Below are positions 11,204 through 29,738 of a DNA stretch of 51,758 nucleotides, one piece after another. A model generated the notes under the pieces. That model did not search any database and had not been told where the DNA came from. It was given only the letters and a program-made list of their open reading frames with translations. A program made the position numbers and the translations under genes. Source of the DNA: Acidobacteriota bacterium (GTDB lineage: Bacteria; Acidobacteriota; Terriglobia; UBA7540); assembly GCA_023474345.1 (NCBI GenBank), contig JAMCXS010000017.1:1-51758 (forward strand). The letters run 5' to 3'. Position 1 is the stretch's first letter. Every line of letters begins with the position of its first letter.

Positions 11204-12385
11204 TCAATCTGTTTCTTTCCGCAATGGCCGGCGCAGAAAGGCCGGAACGTCGAGGTCGTCACTCGGAATTTCTACGGGCACGTTTTCCTGCGGAGCTTCG
11301 ACTGGAGGCTTCTCTCGCCGCATCTTGATGTTCTTAACACTTTGTTGAGCGGTGCGCAGGGCGGGCGAAAGCCCGGCGGCAGGTTTCAGACCCATCTTTT
11401 CTGATTTGATCCCTGTCGCGATCACCGTCACCTTGATGGAGTCCTCCATTGATTCGTCATGGACCGCGCCAAAAATAATATTGGCATTCTCGGCGGCGGC
11501 TTTCTGAACAATGGTGGAAGCCTCATGCACTTCATGAAGAGTCAGCGCGCTCGATCCGGTAATATTCAAGAGGATACCCTGCGCGCCGTCAATAGAAGCA
11601 TCTTCGAGCAGCGGGCTGGCAATGGCTCGGTTAGTCGCATCAACCGCACGAGTTTCTCCCTGGCCAATCGCCGTTCCCATCACGGCATAACCCATGCCTT
11701 CCATGATGGTCTTGATGTCCGCGAAGTCACGATTGATGATGCCTGTGATGGTAATAATATCTGAAATGCCTTGGACGCCCTGGCGAAGAACGTCGTCGGC
11801 GATGCGAAAGGCCTCAAAAAAGCTGGTGCCTTTATCCACATATTGCATGAGGCGTTCGTTGGGAATGCAGATCACCGTGTCCACCGCCTGGCCCAATTCT
11901 GAAAGCCCGAATTCGGCCTGCGTCATCCTGCGACGCCCTTCAAACGCAAATGGCTTGGTCACCACTCCCACAGTCAAAGCGCCAAGTTCCCGAGCCAGGC
12001 TCGCCACAATTGGAGCGCCTCCCGTGCCCGTGCCGCCGCCTAATCCCGCCGTCACAAAAACCATGTCCGCTCCATCGAGAGCCTCGATTATTTTTTCAGT
12101 ATCCTCGAGTGCGGCAGCCCGGCCAACGTCCGGATTGGCTCCCGCGCCAAGACCCTTCGTCAGCTTGGCGCCCAGTTGGATCTTGAGCGGGGCCTTCGAA
12201 GTCTCAAGTGCTTGGAGGTCCGTGTTTGCCACCATAAACTCGACGCCTTCAACCCTGGCGGCAATCATGCGGTTGATGGCGTTTCCACCGCCTCCGCCGA
12301 CGCCGATCACCTTGATCTTGGCCCCGCGGCGAATATTGTCAGAAAAGTCGACCCGCAGTCCTTCACCATTTCCGTTATCTGTCAT
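11204..12385 (-). CDS. ftsZ: Cell division protein FtsZ
   Basis: A 393-residue tubulin-like GTPase that polymerises into the Z ring. The N-terminal part has [14 protein letters not shown] and the GTP signature [12 protein letters not shown], followed by [20 protein letters not shown] in the middle. After a variable linker (about residues 320-370), the C-terminal binding peptide [10 protein letters not shown], which docks FtsA, is intact. ATG start, 42 bp after ftsA. It is the last classical dcw gene here, upstream of the hpn genes. Confidence 0.99.
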
Positions 12386-12427
12386 ACGCGCTCCCTACGC
12401 TGGCAATTAAACGTTCCCGCCAAGTTA

Positions 12428-13651
12428 TCAGTCTCCAGGCCCTCGCAACACTCCCCATAGTTTTCCCATCAAACCCTTGCTTCGCTGATCCCGCAATAGC
12501 TGCATTCGCTTTCCATACGCTACAAGTCCCACAACAGCCGCATAGGACGGGTCAGGCAGAACTTCCTCAGAACCTTCCATGTTCATGGGACTGCCTATCC
12601 GAACCGGCAGCCCCAATACCTGTTCAGCCGCTGCCACCAAGCCCCCTAATTTCGCCCCGCCTCCGGTGAGAACCAATCCCGCCCCAAGCTGACTCTCCCG
12701 GTCAACGCGGTCCATCTCGACTTTAATCATCTCAAGTAATTCCGTCGCCCGAGGCTCAATAATTTCTCGCAGCCGTGCATAACTCACAATGCGAGCCGGG
12801 CGCTCACCAACGCTTGGGACTTCCAGTGCCGCAGACTCCGGGATGCCGGAATCCTGTTTTCCCCAAAGCCTCTTGATTTTTTCGGCTTCCGGAATCGGAG
12901 TTCGCAGGCCCACAGCGATGTCGTTAGTGAAATGGTCCCCGCCCACCGGAATCGAAGCCGCATGGCGAACACTTCCGTGCTGGTACACGATCAAATCGGA
13001 CGATCCCGCCCCCAAATCAACTAATCCGACTCCCAGTTCACGCTCATCCGTCGTCAGGCAGGCTTCAGCGCAAGCCAAAGGCTCAAAAATAGTACCACTG
13101 TCCGGGATTTCAATCCCCGCACGATTGACGGCAGTAACAATGTTTTGCCATGCCAAGGTTGAAGCCGTGATTAAGTGGACATTGGCTTCCAGACGGGACC
13201 CTACCATCCCCAGAGGGTCGCGGATCCCGTCTTGGGAGTCGAGAAGAAACTCCTGAGGGAGGACATGCAACAACTCCCGGTCGGCATGTAGACTGACTTT
13301 TTGGGCGGTCCGGATAACCTGCCGGATTTCCTCCCGGGTGACCCCGTGACCGCGATTGGCCACCGTCACAGCCCCTCGGGCATTGACCCCGCTGATGTGC
13401 GCTCCGCCCACACCCACATAAGCAGTGTCAACCGGGATGTTTGCAGCCGCCTCCGCCGCCTCCACTGCCTTCTTAATGGCAAGCACAGCGGCATCAAGAT
13501 TGACGATAACACCTTTGCGCCATCCTCGGGATTCCGCCACTCCAAGGCCAGCGACCTTGAGTTTTCCCGTTTCACTGAGGTAGCAAACCAGAGCGCATGT
13601 TTTGTTGCTTCCTAGATCAAGTCCGATCAGTGCATGTTCTTTGTTTGCCAA
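12428..13651 (-). CDS. ftsA: Cell division protein FtsA
   Basis: A 407-residue actin-like ATPase that tethers FtsZ to the membrane and recruits later division proteins. Actin-fold phosphate-binding segments are visible (IGLDLGSNKTCAL at residues 8-20, VGLVDLGAGSSDL and LVLTGGGAKLGGL). The C-terminal segment GLMGKLWGVLRG looks like the amphipathic membrane-targeting helix. The start is a TTG (13651-13649) preceded by AGGAAC; no ATG fits. It begins 6 bp after ftsQ ends. Confidence 0.97.
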   Translation of the reverse strand: MANKEHALIGLDLGSNKTCALVCYLSETGKLKVAGLGVAESRGWRKGVIVNLDAAVLAIKKAVEAAEAAANIPVDTAYVGVGGAHISGVNARGAVTVANRGHGVTREEIRQVIRTAQKVSLHADRELLHVLPQEFLLDSQDGIRDPLGMVGSRLEANVHLITASTLAWQNIVTAVNRAGIEIPDSGTIFEPLACAEACLTTDERELGVGLVDLGAGSSDLIVYQHGSVRHAASIPVGGDHFTNDIAVGLRTPIPEAEKIKRLWGKQDSGIPESAALEVPSVGERPARIVSYARLREIIEPRATELLEMIKVEMDRVDRESQLGAGLVLTGGGAKLGGLVAAAEQVLGLPVRIGSPMNMEGSEEVLPDPSYAAVVGLVAYGKRMQLLRDQRSKGLMGKLWGVLRGPGD

Positions 13652-13657
13652 GAGTTC

Positions 13658-14596
13658 CTACGTCTTCTTCGCCTTACGGGCGGTGCTCGTTTTAGTTGCC
13701 GGGGGGGCTCCTGATCCTTGCCCCTCTGGATTTACGACAACCTGGTTGCTATAACGCAAGTCTACAGAACTAATCCGGGCATTGGTTTTGCGCAACTCCG
13801 GAAGTACAGTCAGGAAATTTTCGAATCGCCCCAGAAAATCCCTGTCTCCAAAGTATACCAAAAGCGTCTCCTGCCCCTGGACTAAAAGCGCCTGCAGATC
13901 AGCCGGGTCACTCAAATTTATTTCGGAAACGATCCATCCCGAACGCGACATCTTGTCCGAAGTTTCCCGCATGAATTCACGATAAAGGTCAATCTGTGAT
14001 TTCCGCCTGGCCGGATCCGCCTGAAAATTAAGCCCCCGGATAATAGGAAAATCGAAGTGGCTTTTGTCCGGAGTGTCAAGCAGAACACCATTCCGGTCCA
14101 CCATCTTGATCTGGCCCTCCACGTCGACAAACGCCACGGGCTCGCGCTCGGTCACGTAGACGGTCAGATGGTGGGGATAAGACCGCACAATCGTCGCGGA
14201 GAGAATCCACGGGATGGTCTTGACCTGTTTTTCCTTGCTTTGCAGCGACAATCTGAAAACGTTGATACCGAAACCGGAGTTGGGAACCGGCACTCCCAAA
14301 GCGCTCAAGATTTCTTTCCGCGAAACATAGTGATTTCCCACGACAGTGACGTCGGCGGGTGAGTTCACCTGGAAGCGCGAAGAGTTAAGCGCGTAAACCG
14401 TCAACAGATACCCTGCCCCGCCGAGGGGCAGCAAAATGAGAATGGCAATAAACAGCGCGCGCACCGTCCGCCGGATACCCCATGGGAACCGGCTGCGGCG
14501 CACGGCCACCGCTCGCGAACGCCTCATGTATGGTGTCGCGCTCGGTTGTTCTCTTTCGTCAACCCCCGTTTCGTCCTCAGTCCCAAACATAGCCAC
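13658..14596 (-). CDS. ftsQ: Cell division protein FtsQ
   Basis: A 312-residue single-pass inner-membrane protein of the FtsQLB complex. A basic cytoplasmic tail (RRSRAVAVRRSRF) precedes one membrane helix (about residues 50-70, ALFIAILILLPLGGAGYLLTVY). A POTRA domain follows (DVTVVGNHYVSRKEILSALGV), then the FtsQ beta domain (VTEREPVAFVDVEGQIKMVDRNGVLL). The C-terminus is Lys/Ala/Thr-rich (about the last 25 residues), an unusual but probably disordered tail. Its place between murB and ftsA is standard, although ddl, often found here, is absent. Confidence 0.95.
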   Translation of the reverse strand: MAMFGTEDETGVDEREQPSATPYMRRSRAVAVRRSRFPWGIRRTVRALFIAILILLPLGGAGYLLTVYALNSSRFQVNSPADVTVVGNHYVSRKEILSALGVPVPNSGFGINVFRLSLQSKEKQVKTIPWILSATIVRSYPHHLTVYVTEREPVAFVDVEGQIKMVDRNGVLLDTPDKSHFDFPIIRGLNFQADPARRKSQIDLYREFMRETSDKMSRSGWIVSEINLSDPADLQALLVQGQETLLVYFGDRDFLGRFENFLTVLPELRKTNARISSVDLRYSNQVVVNPEGQGSGAPPATKTSTARKAKKT

Positions 14597-14660
14597 CGCT
14601 CTATCGGATCCCGCTTTTTCGGTTGGCCGCTTCTTGCCGACCTCTTGTCACCTGGAGACC

Positions 14661-15590
14661 TTACTGCAGTTTTGCTATGTCTCGCCAGATAATAACTTCT
14701 TCCTCGAGTTCCACTCCGCAAGCCCGCAGTACCCTTTCGCGGATCAATTCAATCAGTTTCAGGATGTCAGACGCCGACGCTTGGAAACGATTCACAACAA
14801 AGTTGGCGTGGCGTTCGGAAACCACTGCTCCACCTACGCGCGTTCCTTTCAGTCCCAATTCGTCAATCAACTTGCCCGCTGAGTATCCCGGAGGATTTTT
14901 GAAAATACATCCCGCGCTCTTTTCGTTCACGGGTTGGGACGCGCGGCGCCTTTGATTGCACTGCTTCACCCGCTCAAGGATGTCGGTATAAGGCCGTTCG
15001 GGCAATTCGAGCAGTGCAGAGAGCATGATATCGTCGGGAGCGAAACTCGTGTGCCGGTACTCGAACCGCATTTCGCTTGTTTGAAGGGTCTCCACCCGCC
15101 CGACTGCGCCTCGAAAGACCGTTAGGGACCGCACCGCATCTCCGATCTGTGTTCCGTAAGCGCCGGCATTCATTCGCAGCGCCCCGCCCACGCTTCCGGG
15201 AACACCGATCAAACCCTCCATGCCACCAAGGTTCCGTTTGGCACATTCCATCACTGCAGTCCCGAGATTTTGGGAGGCGGGAACCTCGACCCGATTGCTT
15301 TGGAATTCGAGTGCTTTCCAGGTACGCGCCAGGTGCAACACCACGCCTTCAAGGCCTTCGTCCGCAACCAGCAAGTTGGTCCCTCCACCCATGATTCTCC
15401 ACGGGATGCCGTATTCCCGGAGGATTGCAACCAATTCCGGCAGGCAGAAAGCATCACGAATCTCGATAACGTCGGCAGGGCCTCCAATACCCAGAGAGGT
15501 GTGCCTGGCCATCAGTTCACCGGGCAGCCACAGCGCCGCCGCAGCCCCGACTCGCCCCGCCATCTCCTCCTTCAGAGCGTTCGAGCGCAT
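14661..15590 (-). CDS. murB: UDP-N-acetylenolpyruvoylglucosamine reductase
   Basis: A 309-residue FAD enzyme that reduces UDP-GlcNAc-enolpyruvate to UDP-MurNAc. The FAD-binding region includes TSLGIGGPADVIEI and MGGGTNLLVADEG. The substrate region includes GVPGSVGGALRMNAGAYG, and the C-terminal SAGCIFKNPPGYSAGKLIDE carries the catalytic serine of type-I/II MurB (SAGC.FKNP). Its ATG overlaps the murC stop by one base (TGATG), indicating coupled translation. Confidence 0.98.
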   Translation of the reverse strand: MRSNALKEEMAGRVGAAAALWLPGELMARHTSLGIGGPADVIEIRDAFCLPELVAILREYGIPWRIMGGGTNLLVADEGLEGVVLHLARTWKALEFQSNRVEVPASQNLGTAVMECAKRNLGGMEGLIGVPGSVGGALRMNAGAYGTQIGDAVRSLTVFRGAVGRVETLQTSEMRFEYRHTSFAPDDIMLSALLELPERPYTDILERVKQCNQRRRASQPVNEKSAGCIFKNPPGYSAGKLIDELGLKGTRVGGAVVSERHANFVVNRFQASASDILKLIELIRERVLRACGVELEEEVIIWRDIAKLQ

Positions 15591-16999
15591 CAGCCTTTTG
15601 CTCCACCCACGCGTGCCATGCGATCACTCAACCCGGCCGCCAGTGCTTCCGCAATTGTCCATACGCTGCCGGCACCGACTGTGAGGATCAAATCGCCGGC
15701 GTTCGCCTCAGCCAAAACCTCTTCAAGCACAGCGGCCGGTGATGGCCGGTACCGCGCCCGTTTGAAACCAAGTTCGGACATTCTTCGAACCAGCCGTTCT
15801 GAAGTCACGCCAGCAATGGGAGGCTCGCTGGCGGGATAAATGTCCAGCACATAGACTCGATCGCAAGCCCCAAAGCATCGCGCGAAATCATCCATCAAGA
15901 ATTTTGTTCGGGTATAACGGTGAGGCTGGAAAATGGCCCAAATACGTTTCGCGCCATGCAGCTTTGCCGCCTCGAGCGTTGCCTGGATCTCCGTGGGATG
16001 ATGGCCGTAGTCATCGACAACCGTTATGCCGTCCAATTCTGCCTTGATCTGGAAACGCCGATCGGCGCCCCGGAAATGCTCCAGGCCTTCTCGAATCTGC
16101 TCCGGCGTCAAATCAAGTTCGCGCCCCACCGCAATCGCGGCAAGAGCGTTCTGGACGTTATGGCGGCCGGCAATATTCACGGTGAAACGTCCAATGCAGT
16201 TCCCGTTTACGTCCACATCAAAAAGCGAGCTTCCGGACTGCAAATCAAGATTGCGCGCCGTCACGTCCGCCCCGGGTTCAATGCCGTAAGTCACGACACG
16301 CCTGCGGAGCCGTGGCAGCAGAGTCTCCAAGGGACGCCGCCAAGGAGCATCAGTGCACGCAATGACAACTCCGTAGAAAGGAACCTTGTTCATGAAAGAA
16401 GCGAAGGAGTTCTCAATCTCCTCCAGGTTTTCGTAGTGATCAAGGTGTTCCCGGTCGATGTTGGTTATCACCGCGAGCGTCGGGAGCAGGTACAGAAACG
16501 AACGGTCGCTCTCGTCCGCCTCCACCACCATCAGTTCCCCTTTACCCAGCCGCGCGCTCGATCCGAAGGCGTCCAAGCGCCCGCCAATAACCGCTGTAGG
16601 ATCAAGGCCGGCCTCCGCCAGCATCACTGCCACCATCGAAGTCACGGTGGTTTTGCCGTGCGAACCGGCTACGGCCACACAAAATTTCAACCGCATCAGT
16701 TCAGCCAGCATCTCCGCCCGTGGAATTACCGGAATTTTGTGGCGTATTGCCTCAGCGATTTCCGGATTCTGGGGCGGGACAGCCGAAGAGACGACAACCA
16801 CTTCCGCATCGCCAACATTCGTTGCCGCGTGACCCTCAAAAACCTGTGCACCCAGCCGGGCCAGTCGCTCCGTAACCGGAGTCTGTTTCAGGTCAGAACC
16901 GGAAACGCTGAAACCCAGGTTTAACAGCACTTCGGCAATGCCGCTCATCCCGATGCCGCCAATACCAACAAAATGAATTCTGCGGATCTTTCCCAACAT
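15590..16999 (-). CDS. murC: UDP-N-acetylmuramate--L-alanine ligase
   Basis: A 469-residue Mur ligase that adds the first amino acid of the stem peptide. The N-terminal UDP-binding domain has [17 protein letters not shown], the central ATPase P-loop is [12 protein letters not shown], and the C-terminal domain includes [18 protein letters not shown]. All three are MurC-specific forms of the ligase motifs. Length is standard. It lies 41 bp after murG and overlaps murB by one base. Confidence 0.98.
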
Positions 17000-17040
17000 A
17001 AGAAGTTCCCTTTGCTCGGCCTTGTTAAGTCCGGCGTCCT

Positions 17041-18246
17041 TTATGCGCTCTGCGTTTTTCTGCCTAATTCTTCGACCAGGTCCGCAATGTGCCTCGCGGC
17101 TCCCGGCCGGGCCATACTCCTGGCCTTCTGTTCCATTAAGCCCAGATTCCGGGGATTACGGAGCAAATCCCAAATTTCTCTTACCAGGCGTTGCGGCGTC
17201 AAATCCTTTTGCTCAATCACCTGCGCTCCGCCAACGCGTTCGAGCGCTCTCGAGTTCTGCAACTGATGCTGATCTGTGGCGGAGGGATAAGGCACCAGGA
17301 TTGAGGCCTTTCCTGCAGCCGCCAATTCAGCCACCGTGGTGGCTCCCGCACGGCAAACAATCAGGTCTGCTCGCGAAAAAGTTTCCGCAATGCGATCAAT
17401 AAATGCACTGACCTCAGCTCGGATACCCTGTTTATCGTAAGCCGCTCGCACAACATTATAATCTGCCTCACCCGTTTGATGAATAAATCTCAAGTCGTTT
17501 CCGCCGTCCATCTGGAAGAGGGGAAGGCTTTCGATCAAGCATTGATTGAGTGCCCGTGCTCCCTGGCTCCCGCCCGCGATCAAGATGGTGAAAGGAGCGC
17601 TGTGCGCTTTGGGCACGATCTTGAAAAATTCCCGCCGGACCGGATGCCCGGTGAAATGCGCCTTAGTCCCGTACACCGAGAGCGATTCCTCAAATCCCAC
17701 CGCCGCCAGCCGTACCACGGGCGCCAAAACGCGGTTCGTAAACCCTGGAACGGCGTTCGGCTCAAAAAGCAAGGTCGGAATCCCTACGAGCGCGGCCTCT
17801 AACATCACGGGCCCCGAAATGTACCCGCCCATGCCGACAACTACATTCGGGTGAAAGTTACGGAGTACCTTTCCAGCCTCCAATGCGCTCTGTGGCAGCG
17901 TCATTAGGTTGCGAAATCGCTTTCGTCCCCTGATGCCTTTCAGACCGGCGCCCTTGATAATCTCTAAAGGGTAGCCTGCTTCAGGGATCAAGCGAGCTTC
18001 AAGTCCCCGGCCCGTTCCAAGAAACACCGTTTCGTAGGCCAGCCCGTCCGACTTGGAAGTTCCGGAGCATACCTGCAATTCTTCCGCCACCGCGAGAGCC
18101 GGAAAAATATGGCCGCCCGTTCCTCCCGCCGCCATCAGCACCCGGACAGATCCTCTTGGCCGGCTGGCAGCTTCGAACGCCGTGGTCGTCCCTTCTGCTC
18201 CCAGCATGAGTTCACCGTGTTGATCCACACTTACGCCTGACACCAT
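17041..18246 (-). CDS. murG: UDP-GlcNAc--lipid I N-acetylglucosaminyltransferase
   Basis: A GT28 glycosyltransferase of up to 401 residues that converts lipid I to lipid II on the cytoplasmic face. The glycine-rich motif [19 protein letters not shown] is the MurG signature; [26 protein letters not shown] and the nucleotide-sugar-binding [20 protein letters not shown] follow. The product carries about 35 residues before the first conserved strand, more than usual. The ATG at 18207 in the same frame may be the true start; neither site has a strong ribosome-binding site. Confidence 0.96.
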
Positions 18247-18260
18247 GCTCGTTCGCGCGC

Positions 18261-19352
18261 CTAACTTGTATTCTGGGATATATTTAGCAGAATCCCGATA
18301 GCCAGCAGGGTCATCACCAGAGATGAGCCCCCGTAACTGATCAGCGGCAGCGGAATGCCCTTGGTGGGAAGCAAGCCGATGACAACGCTAACGTTTACCA
18401 TGGCCTCGCCGACCACCATGATGGTCAGCCCGATGGCTAGCAGCCGGCCAAAATCGTTTGAACAGCGCGCGGCAGCCCGCAGCCCTCGCCACAGAATGAC
18501 TCCAAACAGGGCCAAGACCGCAATCGCACCGATAAGTCCCAATTCTTCGCTGATCACAGCAAAAATAAAATCCGTTTGCGGCTCAGGGAGGAAAAAGAGC
18601 TTCTGTTTCCCTTCCATCAAACCCACCCCTGCAATTCCACCCGTTCCCACCGCTATGTATGACTGCAGGATTTGAAATCCAGCCCCCAGCGGGTCGGCGT
18701 AAGGATGCAAAAATGCCAGTACGCGTTTATACCGGTATCCCACGTGGAAGATCAGTAAAAAAATCACCGGGAAGGCTGCGAGCATTCCGTAACCAAAATA
18801 GATCAATGGTAAACCCGCTGCAAAAAGCATGGCCGCCACAATCAACGCGAGCGCCAAGGTCGTTCCAAAATCCGGCTCCCGCAAGATCAACAGAGCGTCG
18901 ATCCCCACAACTAGCCCGATCGGCAGCAGCGTCCGCTTCCAGTCACTGATTTCGTTCTTGTGCATATCGAGAAAGTAAGCCAGGAAAACAATGATAACGA
19001 TCTTGGCGAACTCGGAAGGCTGAAAGCTGACAGCGCCCAAGTGCAGCCAGCGGCGGGCATGATGGGACGGATTCCAGAGCAACACCACTAAAAGCATCAA
19101 AACTTGCAAACCAAGCGCCGGAAAAATCACCAGGGGATTTGCGAGGCGGCGGTAATCCAGCTTCATCATAATCACCATGACAGAAAGTCCCAGCACTGCC
19201 CATACGCCCTGCCGGATAAGATAGTAGGTGCTGGAGCCATAGCGCTCTGAAGCAATCACGGCCGAAGCACTATAAACCATGATGATCCCGAATAAAACCA
19301 GGATGATCACCGCTCCAAACAACGCTTTATCGGCCTCAAGTTGTCGTGCCAT
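18261..19352 (-). CDS. ftsW: Septal peptidoglycan polymerase FtsW
   Basis: A 363-residue SEDS-family glycosyltransferase with about ten hydrophobic helices that polymerises lipid II together with FtsI. Conserved features include SERYGSSTYYLIRQGVWA near the N-terminus, the loop LREPDFGTTLALALIV with the conserved acidic residue, FAVISEELGLIGA, and the C-terminal PLISYGGSSLVMTLLAIGILL. It starts 7 bp after murD behind a closely placed GGAG and ends 14 bp before murG. Confidence 0.97.
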   Translation of the reverse strand: MARQLEADKALFGAVIILVLFGIIMVYSASAVIASERYGSSTYYLIRQGVWAVLGLSVMVIMMKLDYRRLANPLVIFPALGLQVLMLLVVLLWNPSHHARRWLHLGAVSFQPSEFAKIVIIVFLAYFLDMHKNEISDWKRTLLPIGLVVGIDALLILREPDFGTTLALALIVAAMLFAAGLPLIYFGYGMLAAFPVIFLLIFHVGYRYKRVLAFLHPYADPLGAGFQILQSYIAVGTGGIAGVGLMEGKQKLFFLPEPQTDFIFAVISEELGLIGAIAVLALFGVILWRGLRAAARCSNDFGRLLAIGLTIMVVGEAMVNVSVVIGLLPTKGIPLPLISYGGSSLVMTLLAIGILLNISQNTS

Positions 19353-19359
19353 GCTCCAG

Positions 19360-21186
19360 TTATTCCATCCTGCGAGATGTTGTAGGTTCCCCTGAGCCTG
19401 CCCTCACTGCGCTGCCTCGTTCCTTTGCTTCGACGGCCAGTTTGTCGCCGGAGGAAGGACGAACCTCGAATGCCAAGACTTCGTCCTCGACCTCCTCAGG
19501 AGACGTCAGGTCGGCTGTGTCTGGACGCGGTTCTTCGGTTCCCTCATAAAAATCGACTCCCGGCCCGGGCGAAGTTTCCTCGGCGCTTACTTCGTAGATG
19601 TATTCCAGTTCTCGCGGCGTCGATAATCGGAAGGCTTCCTGTTCAAGCGCAGGATGAACCACCCGAGCCCGGCTCACAGTCTCCCGGGGCGCAGATTCTC
19701 GCGCCCAGCGGGATGAAAGCTGTGGAGCACCGCAGACCGCCAATGAGGCATCTGTCGCCGCCGATTCAATTATCTTACCCTCTGATTTCCCCGCCGATCG
19801 AGACCGTTGAACCCCGGCTTTCCCTGAATTTTCCCCAGCCAGCCGTTCAACCAAGTCCTTAAACTCCCGGCCTCGGTGTTCAAAATTTTCAAACTGGTCA
19901 AAACTTGCGCACGCGGGAGCTAGCAGAATAACGTCCCCAGTCTCCGCGCGTTCGAACGCTTTCCGGACGGCGGTTTCTAGTTCGACCGCATCGATGATGT
20001 CCACGGTTCCGGCCAGCTCATTTCTAATGCGCTCGCGGTCAGCTCCGATTACTAGAATCTCCCGCACGCGGTCTTTTAGCAAACTGCGCAGCGGCTCGTA
20101 GGGCGCTCCCTTGTCCTTGCCTCCCAAAATCAAATGAACTCCTTGCTCAAAAGTTGAGAGCGCTTTTTGAGCTGCGTCAACGCTTGTGGCCTTAGAATCG
20201 TTGTAAAAAGCTACGCCCTGAATTTCCCCCACAAACTCCAGCCGGTGCTCCACGCCGTGAAACTCGCGGACGGCGCGACGAATGGAGGCAAACTCCGCTC
20301 CCAAAACGCACGCCGCGGCGGCAGCGGCAAGCACGTTTTCCAGGTTAAATTCTCCGCGCAATCGCACGTCGCGCGTCGCCATCAAATCCACCTCCAGGTT
20401 CCGGACGCGATATCGAATCTTTCCGCCGGAGATGAAGACGCCACTGGCAAGTTCCCGCTGCCGGCTGAAATAGATCTTCCGGCTGCGGATTCCCGGTGCG
20501 AGACTCACGACCTTATCGTCATCAGCATTCAAAATCGCGTAATCATTTTCCGTCTGGTTTTCGAAGATCCGGGCTTTGGCGGCGATGTAAGCTTCAAAGT
20601 CAGCGTGACGGTCCAAATGATTAGGAGTTAGGTTCAACAGCACTGCCACCTCAGGCCGAAAGGAATGAATTGTTTCAAGCTGAAAGCTGCTCAACTCAGC
20701 GACCACCACCGAGGCCGGCGGGACTTGATCGAGGGCGGAAAGCAAGGGCACTCCAATGTTCCCCCCCACAAAAGTGGAGAAACCCGAAGCCTCAAGGATC
20801 TTCCCAAGCAATGCCGTTGTTGTGGTCTTCCCGTTAGTCCCTGTAATGCCCGCGAGCCGTCCGTCAAGGAACCAACTGGCAACCTCGATTTCCGGGACCA
20901 CGGGGATTCCCTTCCGCCGCGCCACCTCCAGCAGCGGCAAGTCCGCAGGCACGCCGGGACTCACCACAATCACATCGTGGCGCAAAAAAGTTTCCTCGCG
21001 GTGCAGGCCAAGCTCCATGCCGATTTTCTGATCGAGCAGTTCGCGAATCTCTTTCGAAAAGAGCTGCGGCGGGCGCAAATCCGTCACCGTCACCACCGCC
21101 CCGCGCTGGGCCAGACAGCGCGCGACGGCAAGCCCCGTCCGCGCCAGGCCCACCACCAATACGTTCTTCCCGCGAACGTCTATCAC
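19360..21186 (-). CDS. murD: UDP-MurNAc-L-Ala--D-glutamate ligase with long C-terminal extension
   Basis: Residues 1 to about 450 are a normal MurD, which adds D-Glu to the stem peptide: VVGLARTGLAVARCLAQRG at the start, the P-loop GITGTNGKTTTTALLG (about 113-128), NLTPNHLDRH, HRLEFVGEIQGVAFYNDSKA and APACASFDQFENFEHRG. Residues of about 451-608 form a 158-residue tail rich in Glu, Ser, Pro and Arg with no recognisable fold, probably disordered; this is not normal for MurD. The start is GTG (21186-21184), preceded by GGAGG that lies inside the upstream small gene and overlapping that gene's stop codon (GTGA), so translation is coupled. Confidence 0.96.
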   Translation of the reverse strand: MIDVRGKNVLVVGLARTGLAVARCLAQRGAVVTVTDLRPPQLFSKEIRELLDQKIGMELGLHREETFLRHDVIVVSPGVPADLPLLEVARRKGIPVVPEIEVASWFLDGRLAGITGTNGKTTTTALLGKILEASGFSTFVGGNIGVPLLSALDQVPPASVVVAELSSFQLETIHSFRPEVAVLLNLTPNHLDRHADFEAYIAAKARIFENQTENDYAILNADDDKVVSLAPGIRSRKIYFSRQRELASGVFISGGKIRYRVRNLEVDLMATRDVRLRGEFNLENVLAAAAAACVLGAEFASIRRAVREFHGVEHRLEFVGEIQGVAFYNDSKATSVDAAQKALSTFEQGVHLILGGKDKGAPYEPLRSLLKDRVREILVIGADRERIRNELAGTVDIIDAVELETAVRKAFERAETGDVILLAPACASFDQFENFEHRGREFKDLVERLAGENSGKAGVQRSRSAGKSEGKIIESAATDASLAVCGAPQLSSRWARESAPRETVSRARVVHPALEQEAFRLSTPRELEYIYEVSAEETSPGPGVDFYEGTEEPRPDTADLTSPEEVEDEVLAFEVRPSSGDKLAVEAKERGSAVRAGSGEPTTSRRME

Positions 21187-21356
21187 GGAATCCTCCGGGA
21201 GTGTCTGCGTCCATTCCGTTGAAAATGGTCATCTAGAATTTCAGAAATGACAACCGAGAGCGAGTGCCGGGCCAGCCGGCGGGCGGCCTCGAGCGTTTTG
21301 CGGTCCAGGGTCAGGTTGACCCGCGCCGGATTACGAAAAGATTTCGGGCGTCCCAT
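21183..21356 (-). CDS. Small ribbon-helix-helix (CopG/Arc-type) DNA-binding protein
   Basis: A 57-residue protein between mraY and murD. The sequence begins MGRPKSFRNPARVNLTLDRK and continues TLEAARRLARHSLSVVISEI. It fits the RHH fold: a short beta strand (RVNLTL) that would pair in a dimer and enter the DNA major groove, then helix A (KTLEAARRLAR) and helix B (SVVISEILDDHF). The turn between the helices is two or three residues shorter than usual. A basic tail follows. The ATG is fixed by an in-frame TAA 6 nt upstream. There is no ribosome-binding site; two 10-bp direct repeats occupy that space. The stop overlaps the murD GTG. No toxin gene lies beside it, so it is more likely a local regulator than an antitoxin. 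Confidence 0.75.
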   Translation of the reverse strand: MGRPKSFRNPARVNLTLDRKTLEAARRLARHSLSVVISEILDDHFQRNGRRHSRRIP

Positions 21357-21362
21357 CGCTTA

Positions 21363-21383
21363 TTTATGCGCATTTTATGCGCA
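21363..21383 (-). promoter_or_regulatory. Tandem operator-like repeats upstream of the RHH gene
   Basis: Two identical 10-bp repeats, TTTATGCGCA on the plus strand (21363-21372 and 21374-21383), each holding the palindrome TGCGCA and spaced 11 bp, one turn of the helix. They start 7 bp upstream of the RHH start codon and lie in the 57-bp gap after mraY. RHH dimers bind such in-phase short sites cooperatively, so autoregulation by the neighbouring protein is a reasonable inference. Confidence 0.55.
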
Positions 21384-21413
21384 CAAATTCTCCCCGTCAA
21401 ATAGTCTTTGCAT

Positions 21414-22544
21414 CTAACGCAATTTCAGCGTCGTCAATGCAAAAAGCGCGCAGATCAGGGCGGCAATCCAGAATCGCGCAATGATCTTTGATTCCTTCCA
21501 TCCCTGCAGTTCGAAATGGTGGTGAAGGGGAGCCATCCTGAAAATGCGTTTCCGTCTCAGCTTGTAGGAGCCAACCTGCAGGATTACCGAAAGCGCCTCG
21601 ATCACAAAAATGCCGCCGATAAAAGGAAGCAACAGCTCCTGCTTGATAATCACGGCCACGGCGGCGACGGCGCCTCCCAACGAAAGTGAGCCCACGTCGC
21701 CCATAAAAATCTCCGCCGGGTAAGCGTTATACCAGAGGAAGCCCAGGCTGGAGCCGACCATAGCGCCGCAAAGAATGGTTAATTCGGCGGCGCTGGGCAA
21801 GTGCTCAATATCGAGGTACTGCGAAAGAATGGCGTGCCCGGAAACATAAGTCAGCACTGTCAACGCTGAAGCAGCCACCACAATGCAACCGATGGCCAGG
21901 CCATCCAGTCCGTCCGTAAGATTCACAGCGTTCGAGGACCCCACCAGGATCAGGACCACAAAGGCAAGGAAGGGCAGGAAAGCGACGGGATAGGTCCATG
22001 AGTTTCGCAGCAAGGCGGAGATTGCAAAAGTGGGATGAATCCGTTTGAAAAAGGGAAACACAATGGCCGTCGAGTAAAGCCCCCCCGCGGTCATCATCAC
22101 TAAAATCACACCGAAAACGAAGCTGACCAGGATCTGGAGCAAAAACTTCGTGCGCGCCGTCAACCCCTGATTTTGCCGCCGCCTTAGCTTTTGATAGTCA
22201 TCCCAAAAGCCGATACCCGCAAAGGCCACGGTGACCCCCAGCGCGAGCCAGATAAAAGGATTTCGCAGGTCAGCCCACATCAGCGTCGGAAGAATGATGC
22301 AAAGGTTAATCAGCACTCCACCCATCGTGGGAGTTCCAGCTTTCGCCTGATGAGCTTTGGGACCGTCCTCCCGGATATATTGGCCGATCTGAAATTGTTT
22401 GAGCTTCCGAATTACGTAAGGGCCCAAAAACATCGCGAGGAAAAGCGCCGTAAGGCTTGCGTAAGCGGTTCGGAAGGTAACGTATCGAAAGAGATTGAAG
22501 ATGTGATATTCAGTATGAAATTTTAGGTAGAGATAATAAAACAT
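21414..22544 (-). CDS. mraY: Phospho-N-acetylmuramoyl-pentapeptide-transferase
   Basis: A 376-residue integral membrane enzyme that transfers phospho-MurNAc-pentapeptide to undecaprenyl phosphate, making lipid I. Family motifs are intact: GPKAHQAKAGTPTMGGVLI, the aspartate pair in FWDDYQKLRRRQNQGL, NAVNLTDGLDGLAIG, and the C-terminal APLHHHFELQGWKESKI. The ten-helix hydrophobic pattern and length match the family. It starts 6 bp after the murF stop. Confidence 0.98.
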   Translation of the reverse strand: MFYYLYLKFHTEYHIFNLFRYVTFRTAYASLTALFLAMFLGPYVIRKLKQFQIGQYIREDGPKAHQAKAGTPTMGGVLINLCIILPTLMWADLRNPFIWLALGVTVAFAGIGFWDDYQKLRRRQNQGLTARTKFLLQILVSFVFGVILVMMTAGGLYSTAIVFPFFKRIHPTFAISALLRNSWTYPVAFLPFLAFVVLILVGSSNAVNLTDGLDGLAIGCIVVAASALTVLTYVSGHAILSQYLDIEHLPSAAELTILCGAMVGSSLGFLWYNAYPAEIFMGDVGSLSLGGAVAAVAVIIKQELLLPFIGGIFVIEALSVILQVGSYKLRRKRIFRMAPLHHHFELQGWKESKIIARFWIAALICALFALTTLKLR

Positions 22545-29214: not shown

Positions 29215-29655
29215 CTAAATGCCAAGGTTGCTCAGCGCCTCGAAGTCATCGTCGGTTAGCGGCTCGCGCTCGAGGTGTTCGCGGAAGCGCTCCATGTTCC
29301 AGACCTCGAGGTGTTTCAGGTGTCCGATCACCGCAACCTCGCCTTTCATCCCCGCTGACTCCCGCAGCAGCACCGGAATCAATATCCTCCCTTGCCCGTC
29401 CATCTGTACCGTCTGTCCCCAGTAATTCACCCGGTCCAGGAAACGCCTCTTGTGTTTGTCCGTCGAAGGCAACGCTGCCAGCTTTTCTTCAATTTTTTCC
29501 CACTCGGGAAAGGGATAGACTTTGACGCTCTCGCCCTCGAAACTCGTCACAAAAAATTCCCGCCCATAGTTCTCGTCCAGAAAGGTCTTGAAGGCGGTCG
29601 GAATCTTGAGCCGACCTTTGGGATCCATCGTGGCTGGATAATTTCCTCTCAACAT
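29215..29655 (-). CDS. mraZ: Transcriptional regulator MraZ
   Basis: A 146-residue protein made of two SpoVT/AbrB-like half-domains. The first has GNYPATMDPKGRLKIPTAFK and the second has VQMDGQGRILIPVLLRE, each with the DxxGR signature. MraZ forms a ring-shaped oligomer that binds repeats in its own promoter region and represses the dcw cluster in studied bacteria. Matching repeats lie 50-83 bp upstream here. It is the first gene of the cluster; no clear ribosome-binding site precedes the ATG. Confidence 0.97.
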   Translation of the reverse strand: MLRGNYPATMDPKGRLKIPTAFKTFLDENYGREFFVTSFEGESVKVYPFPEWEKIEEKLAALPSTDKHKRRFLDRVNYWGQTVQMDGQGRILIPVLLRESAGMKGEVAVIGHLKHLEVWNMERFREHLEREPLTDDDFEALSNLGI

Positions 29656-29704: not shown

Positions 29705-29738
29705 ACACTTTTTTCTACTTCAGACCACTCCTGACCAC
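29705..29738 (-). promoter_or_regulatory. MraZ-box repeats
   Basis: Four GTGG-like tetramers on the minus strand with exact 10-bp period: GTGG (29738-29735), GTGG (29728-29725), GTAG (29718-29715) and GTGT (29708-29705). This spacing and motif match the operator of MraZ in characterised bacteria. They lie immediately downstream of the -10 box, so binding should block initiation. The last two are imperfect and may be weaker sites. Confidence 0.85.

Follow-up and report, generated by a model that had tools for sequence, protein, structure and literature searches.

It has long been asked how the long transcript of the bacterial division and cell wall (dcw) cluster is apportioned to wall precursors on one side and division proteins on the other; the usual dedicated regulator of the cluster is MraZ. 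Here we analyse a small gene lying between mraY and murD in the dcw cluster of an Acidobacteriota bacterium (GCA_023474345.1, contig JAMCXS010000017.1; the whole stretch analysed, 51,758 nucleotides, is called the window), together with the palindrome upstream of it. The small protein is probably a ribbon-helix-helix (RHH) autorepressor that binds a 27-bp palindrome as two dimers and would thereby cap a predicted internal promoter serving murD through ftsZ. MraZ, held by its family description (TIGR00242) to control the dcw cluster, is likewise a regulator located within it, but the small protein belongs to another family and its gene occupies another place.

The nearest precedent is archaeal. 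CdrS of haloarchaea is a single-domain RHH protein of 55 aa encoded directly before, and co-transcribed with, a division gene, and regulation by CdrS and CdrL is reported to be highly specific to ftsZ2 (PMC7439475). This pair differs from our system in being archaeal, in preceding ftsZ2 and in being reported as activating, with CdrL as the direct upstream binder (PMC7439475). The small gene, in contrast, precedes murD in the dcw cluster of a bacterium, and its palindrome lies on a predicted sigma-70 -10 box. The likeness to CdrS is one of size, predicted fold class and gene order only.

Among bacterial RHH regulators, Arc and CopG have operators located at their own promoters. Arc, CopG and AmrZ have a small RHH core, which weak sequence and fold matches predict for the small protein as well, and like the small gene they have two half-sites joined by a 5-base linker; in omega the linker has 4 bases, and AmrZ binds 7.5-fold more weakly when the linker is G/C (PMC3325190). 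These are phage, plasmid or virulence regulators, whereas the small gene is part of a core operon of the chromosome, with a single close target site. An RHH protein repressing its own operon through a promoter palindrome is reported in MobC of plasmid RA3, but MobC is a plasmid transfer protein of 176 aa whose palindrome lies between the -35 and -10 boxes (PMC4175270). RelB-type RHH antitoxins are likewise reported to repress their own operon, with dimers on the palindromic half-sites of the operator and a half-site spacing that cannot be changed (PMC2812701). Unlike RHH antitoxins, the small gene is followed by no toxin gene, and its product, at 56-70 aa, is hardly long enough to include a toxin-binding tail.

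In the literature searched, with most subscription journals outside its scope, we found no description of an RHH gene between mraY and murD, none of a dcw internal promoter with murD, and no paper on DUF6364, a protein family that the small protein resembles. The sequence-only reading, made before any database search, had known of no RHH regulator described in this position. As far as the position goes this holds, the mraY-murD location of an RHH gene being new within these searches; RHH control of a division operon as such is already precedented by CdrS/CdrL and ftsZ2 in archaea (PMC7439475).

The central element is a 27-bp inverted repeat, ATTTG-TGCGCA-TAAAA-TGCGCA-TAAAT, at 21362-21388, which matches the family dyad without mismatch and is likely an operator. 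Its 17-bp core TGCGCATAAAATGCGCA (21367-21383, minus strand) consists of two TGCGCA half-sites spaced 11 bp centre to centre. The palindrome coincides with a predicted promoter on the minus strand, composed of a -35 box TTGACG (21395-21400), a 17-bp spacer and a -10 box TAAAAT (21372-21377) that lies inside the operator and is spanned by TGCGCA-TAAAA-TGCGCA. Scored as matches out of 12 over the two boxes, this promoter reaches 10; it is the sole promoter-like site in 21100-21700, where shuffled sequences gave a mean of 0.2 sites. From the usual -10 spacing, the transcript would start at 21364-21365 on the same strand.

We surveyed 101 relatives, comprising 39 genomes of the window's family and 62 outside it, and the same arrangement recurs wherever the small gene does. 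All 22 carriers have a predicted sigma-70 promoter scoring 10-11 of 12, built as TTGAC-N17 (20 carriers) or TTGAC-N18 (2 carriers) followed by TAAAAT, with TTGAC conserved and the -10 box identical throughout, and in each of them the palindrome covers the -10 box. The 17-bp core TGCGCATAAAATRCGCA stands upstream of the gene with no mismatch in 16 carriers and one mismatch in the remaining 6. Over the 22 loci the conserved unit consists of inverted TGCGYA half-sites, a 5-bp A/T linker and ATT/AAT flanks; the first base of the left half is C in three and the last base of the right half is G in one, and one variant (L004) preserves the dyad by pairing TGCGTA on the left with TACGCA on the right. 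Paired half-sites with such a linker over the gene's own predicted -10 box thus agree with RHH operators in geometry, and in geometry only.

This conservation alters the operator first proposed. The sequence-only reading had described two identical 10-bp direct repeats, 11 bp apart and 7 bp before the ATG, as the gene's own operator embedded in the dcw cluster. The 10-mers TGCGCATAAA at 21374-21383 and 21363-21372 are indeed identical and 11 bp apart start to start, with the second ending 6 bp, not 7, before the ATG. The second TAAA that makes them identical recurs in only 4 of 22 loci, while the inverted ATT/AAT arrangement is conserved, and we rejected a direct-repeat operator. What stands is a conserved operator-like palindrome, an inverted repeat that lies over the -10 box of a predicted promoter not named in the earlier reading. 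The core lies 6-10 nt from the ATG in 16 of 22 loci and 64-120 nt from it in 6 (L008, L009 and L015-L018).

The palindrome also appears to be private to this locus. At two mismatches or fewer, 21 of 22 carriers contain the extended dyad, at the small-gene locus only, against none for the reversed control; in the 22nd, G003, its own dyad is missed at this threshold. In the window's own genome, no site besides the TGCGCA pair turns up even when three mismatches are allowed, and no further core at one mismatch or fewer was found elsewhere in the 39 family genomes, the searches reaching neither degenerate sites nor unassembled DNA. A wider regulon was considered and rejected, given that two-mismatch sites stayed at chance level (10 against 9 for the reversed control in the 22 carriers, and 9 against 8 among the remaining 17 genomes). 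With no second close operator seen, only the gene itself and those downstream could be controlled through the palindrome, which would make the element a self-limiting internal promoter.

The gene itself is conserved in sequence and in place. Homologues occur in 22 of the 101 relatives, that is, in 22 of 39 family genomes and 0 of 62 outside; the rest of the family comprises 15 genomes that are readable and without an intact gene and two (G032, G033) that are unreadable for want of an mraY match. The gene directly precedes murD in all 22 carriers, and the order mraY-small gene-murD is found in 21, the contig of the 22nd (L010) ending before mraY. Because 22 of 39 family genomes carry it, always directly before murD, we take the gene to be real and not a chance open reading frame. 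The sequence-only reading would have had to yield to an absence of both gene and repeats from close relatives; these same 22 genomes have both.

Selection on the protein is purifying. The median ratio of nonsynonymous to synonymous divergence (dN/dS) is 0.20 over 116 of 231 pairs, synonymous divergence (dS) being unusable in the other 115. Between the window copy and its nearest relative, 24 of 37 differences fall at third codon positions, and 0 of 2146 neutral simulations were as conservative as this pair. Small-protein distances track those of mraY and murD (r 0.40, 0 of 9999 permutations, 20 genomes after excluding L010 and L012), a pattern that would fit vertical descent. A phage or plasmid origin was rejected, since searches of the phage and the plasmid collection at E 0.1 both came back empty.

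Beyond the survey, the wider database returned 213 homologues at E<=0.01, and a bacteria-wide scan found 18 loci. Their records carry the names Acidobacteria or Terriglobia throughout, with gp13 or subdivision 13 given for four. All 18 show mraY-gene-murD, with murF in 16 and ftsW in 16, but they correspond to 18 of the 22 carriers and are not independent evidence. A class-wide profile search matched 43 of 299 genomes: the 22 carriers, 5 weak family matches and 16 outside the family (best E 9e-8). Among 8 of the 21 weak class matches checked, 7 of them outside the family, none had a dcw gene within its locus.

Genomes without the intact gene provide the complementary evidence. The comparison covered 18 loci readable from mraY to murD (15 in the family, 3 outside), and in none of them does the core occur within three mismatches or a promoter reach 10 of 12, the highest score being 9 (L029). 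Across all 40 rows of the co-occurrence table, gene and core at one mismatch or fewer are present or absent together. Two of the 18 loci retain decayed remnants of the gene (E 2e-9 and 5e-7). In G011 (L024) the remnant is in frame and without the first helix, TTGACG is kept, and the core has 5 mismatches, including some in the -10 box; in G029 (L025), one of the 5 weak family matches, the remnant is weaker and both promoter and core are gone. Both genomes share a genus with G024, whose copy is intact, and they represent two decay stages, in effect natural knock-outs.

On a tree of mraY and murD, from which L042 (a piece of G036) was excluded, the presence pattern takes 6 changes, at least 5 of them forced by well-supported branches. 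In each of 5 independent pairs the gene and the operator change jointly, a number too small to reach significance (p 0.0625), and at the basal family branches, which the tree leaves unresolved, gain and loss are indistinguishable. The window's own genome is 75% complete, and the family assemblies are partly incomplete.

Assignment of the small protein to the RHH class draws on a relative. We modelled P0003 (60 aa, 84% identical to the window protein) as a single chain, obtaining helices at 19-32 and 36-51 after an extended N-terminus (predicted local distance difference test score, pLDDT, 68.2); the ribbon of RHH proteins forms between two chains. Arc tops the Foldseek list for this model. In a profile alignment of 57 sequences, chosen from a list of 48 plus the best 120 of 213 homologues, RHH_1 was matched at E<=0.1 by 17 members (best E 0.0061), Arc by 1 and DUF6364 by 55. 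The cut-off of DUF6364 (PF19891), 27.3 bits, is reached neither by the window protein (13.4) nor by P0003 (24.0); PF19891 is precomputed in some relatives, so that the wider family touches DUF6364 while the window copy is not filed there. A profile search against the PDB returned Arc at 0.005-1.2 and CopG at about 0.08, both ranked under one homeobox match at 0.0023. The window protein has no NCBIfam match at E<=1, and hence does not belong with MraZ.

Several observations weigh against an RHH autorepressor with a role in the cluster. The window's own copy is modelled, at low confidence, as one helix spanning 19-52 (pLDDT 62.5), and it is without three residues at the helix-helix turn, as is the homologue P0006; because it is shortened there and modelled as a single helix, the fold rests on the 60-residue relative. 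The sequence and fold matches to RHH proteins are themselves weak. For the RHH-type protein of the sequence-only reading, which was to fall if a structure prediction showed no RHH fold, the outcome is mixed: the two helices and turn of P0003 speak for it, as do the RHH-like relatives, while the copy it was read from gives one continuous helix. In addition, 15 of 37 readable family genomes have neither an intact gene nor a complete promoter, and the cassette of gene and promoter is dispensable, as the presence changes on the tree indicate.

Alternatively, the gene could be a domesticated antitoxin without its toxin, a relic cassette that quiets itself, brings no benefit to murD, survives by chance and is freely lost. 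Alignment members match CcdA (7 of 57), Antitox_RHH (3) and FitA-like RHH (3) weakly, at E<=0.1; eight distant class matches are open frames of 74-145 aa with, judged by eye, an antitoxin-like look; and at least five presence changes would suit free loss. Set against this are the neighbours, mraY and murD in 21 of 22 and murD in the 22nd, which do not place the gene among type II antitoxins: murD comes next in 22 of 22, leaving no space for a toxin gene. The purifying selection described above and the retention of promoter and palindrome in all 22 carriers likewise speak against it, and we consider a relic unlikely.

An activator, or a dual regulator, of the internal promoter has its models in CdrS, reported to activate ftsZ2 (PMC7439475), and in AmrZ, which acts as both activator and repressor (PMC3325190). 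In all 22 carriers, however, the palindrome lies over the -10 box, a position from which a bound protein should hinder polymerase, and the predicted promoter already scores 10-11 of 12; an activating or dual role in place of repression is very unlikely. Least probable of all is that another regulator reads the palindrome and the small protein does something unrelated: its binding to the palindrome is a prediction and TGCGCA alone occurs 15 times in the window, but in all 40 rows core and gene are either both present or both lacking, the two decay jointly in G011 and G029, and the searches gave no further close site that a second regulator might use.

We therefore return to autorepression, for which the following course can be proposed. 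The product of the small gene would fold as a ribbon-helix-helix, as the model of the relative and the weak profile matches suggest, and two RHH dimers would occupy the two TGCGCA half-sites 11 bp apart. Bound protein would block RNA polymerase at the -10 box and so repress its own promoter. When the promoter is free, transcription would start 7-8 nt past the -10 box and 8-9 nt before the ATG, giving a leader of 8-9 nt without a Shine-Dalgarno sequence. The internal transcript would read through murD and reach ftsZ, because all genes from murD to ftsZ share one strand and are nowhere more than 64 bp apart. The cassette would thus serve the second half of the cluster from an internal promoter that limits itself, beside MraZ at the cluster's head.

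The sequence-only reading had proposed a second, internal control point for murD through ftsZ. This may hold in a tempered form, given the family genomes without an intact gene: since 15 relatives manage without the cassette, it would tune expression rather than enable it. A more specific scheme, which we put forward as a doubtful possibility, is a feedback tap in which the small gene is read both from the head of the cluster and from its own promoter, closing the internal promoter when flux through murD-ftsZ is high and opening it when MraZ shuts the head, thereby steadying the second half independently of the first. If true, no earlier case of an RHH regulator inside a bacterial dcw cluster would precede it. 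Related genomes in which the cassette is intact, decaying or absent offer a natural comparison, and a one-site regulator is simple enough to transfer into a laboratory strain. The DUF6364-like small proteins of these Acidobacteriota also gain a concrete predicted target sequence.

At the locus, the 57-residue open reading frame that the sequence-only reading had placed between mraY and murD was confirmed at 21183-21356 on the minus strand, with an ATG start, as were the features of its two ends. Its TGA overlaps the murD GTG as GTGA (21183-21186, minus strand), and a GGAGGA in its 3' end (21191-21196, minus strand), ending 4 nt ahead of the GTG, is the likely murD ribosome-binding site. A murD-frame start codon overlaps the small-gene stop in 22 of 22 carriers (a 4-nt overlap in 19, a single nucleotide in 3), and GGAG, GAGG or AGGA lies within the last 25 nt of the small gene in 16 of 22. 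In L009, similarity to MurD starts about 43 codons after the overlapping start codon. The small gene's own ATG is preceded by no Shine-Dalgarno motif in the window; of four such motifs looked for, none occurs in 20 of 22 carriers.

The flanking genes, all on the minus strand, are mraY upstream (21414-22544, 57 bp before the small gene; Glycos_transf_4 1.9e-31 and MraY_sig1) and murD as the first gene downstream (19360-21186, 608 aa; Mur_ligase_M 6.6e-35). They are followed by ftsW, murG, murC, murB, ftsQ, ftsA and ftsZ (11204-19352), of which ftsW was identified by Pfam and murG, murC, murB, ftsA and ftsZ scored above NCBIfam cut-offs; for ftsQ (13658-14596), a search at 1e-8 gave no match, and its name comes from position only. 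The window MurD frame has 608 aa but the Mur ligase profiles stop at residue 426, leaving a long tail before ftsW. Stretches resembling GAATTTCGAGTTTCGAA, seen by eye upstream of L009 and L018 and in the mraY-murD gaps of L027, L031-L034 and L041, are possibly an intergenic repeat family of the lineage.

A separate mraZ, the usual head-of-cluster regulator, was found in 22 of 22 carriers and lies in the window at 29215-29655 on the minus strand (TIGR00242, 104.7 bits, above cut-off). Upstream of it, at 29709-29738 (minus strand), GTGG/GTAG units recur with a 10-bp period, directly following a promoter-like TTGACA-N17-TATATT. Similar 10-bp units stand upstream of mraZ in L115-L132 and, by eye, in most of the 19 stretches compared (4 of 23 mraZ matches, being partial, were left out); we take these repeats for a probable MraZ box of the lineage. 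Control of mraZ by the small protein was considered as well: a half-site occurs in 2 of the 19 mraZ upstream stretches, the window included.
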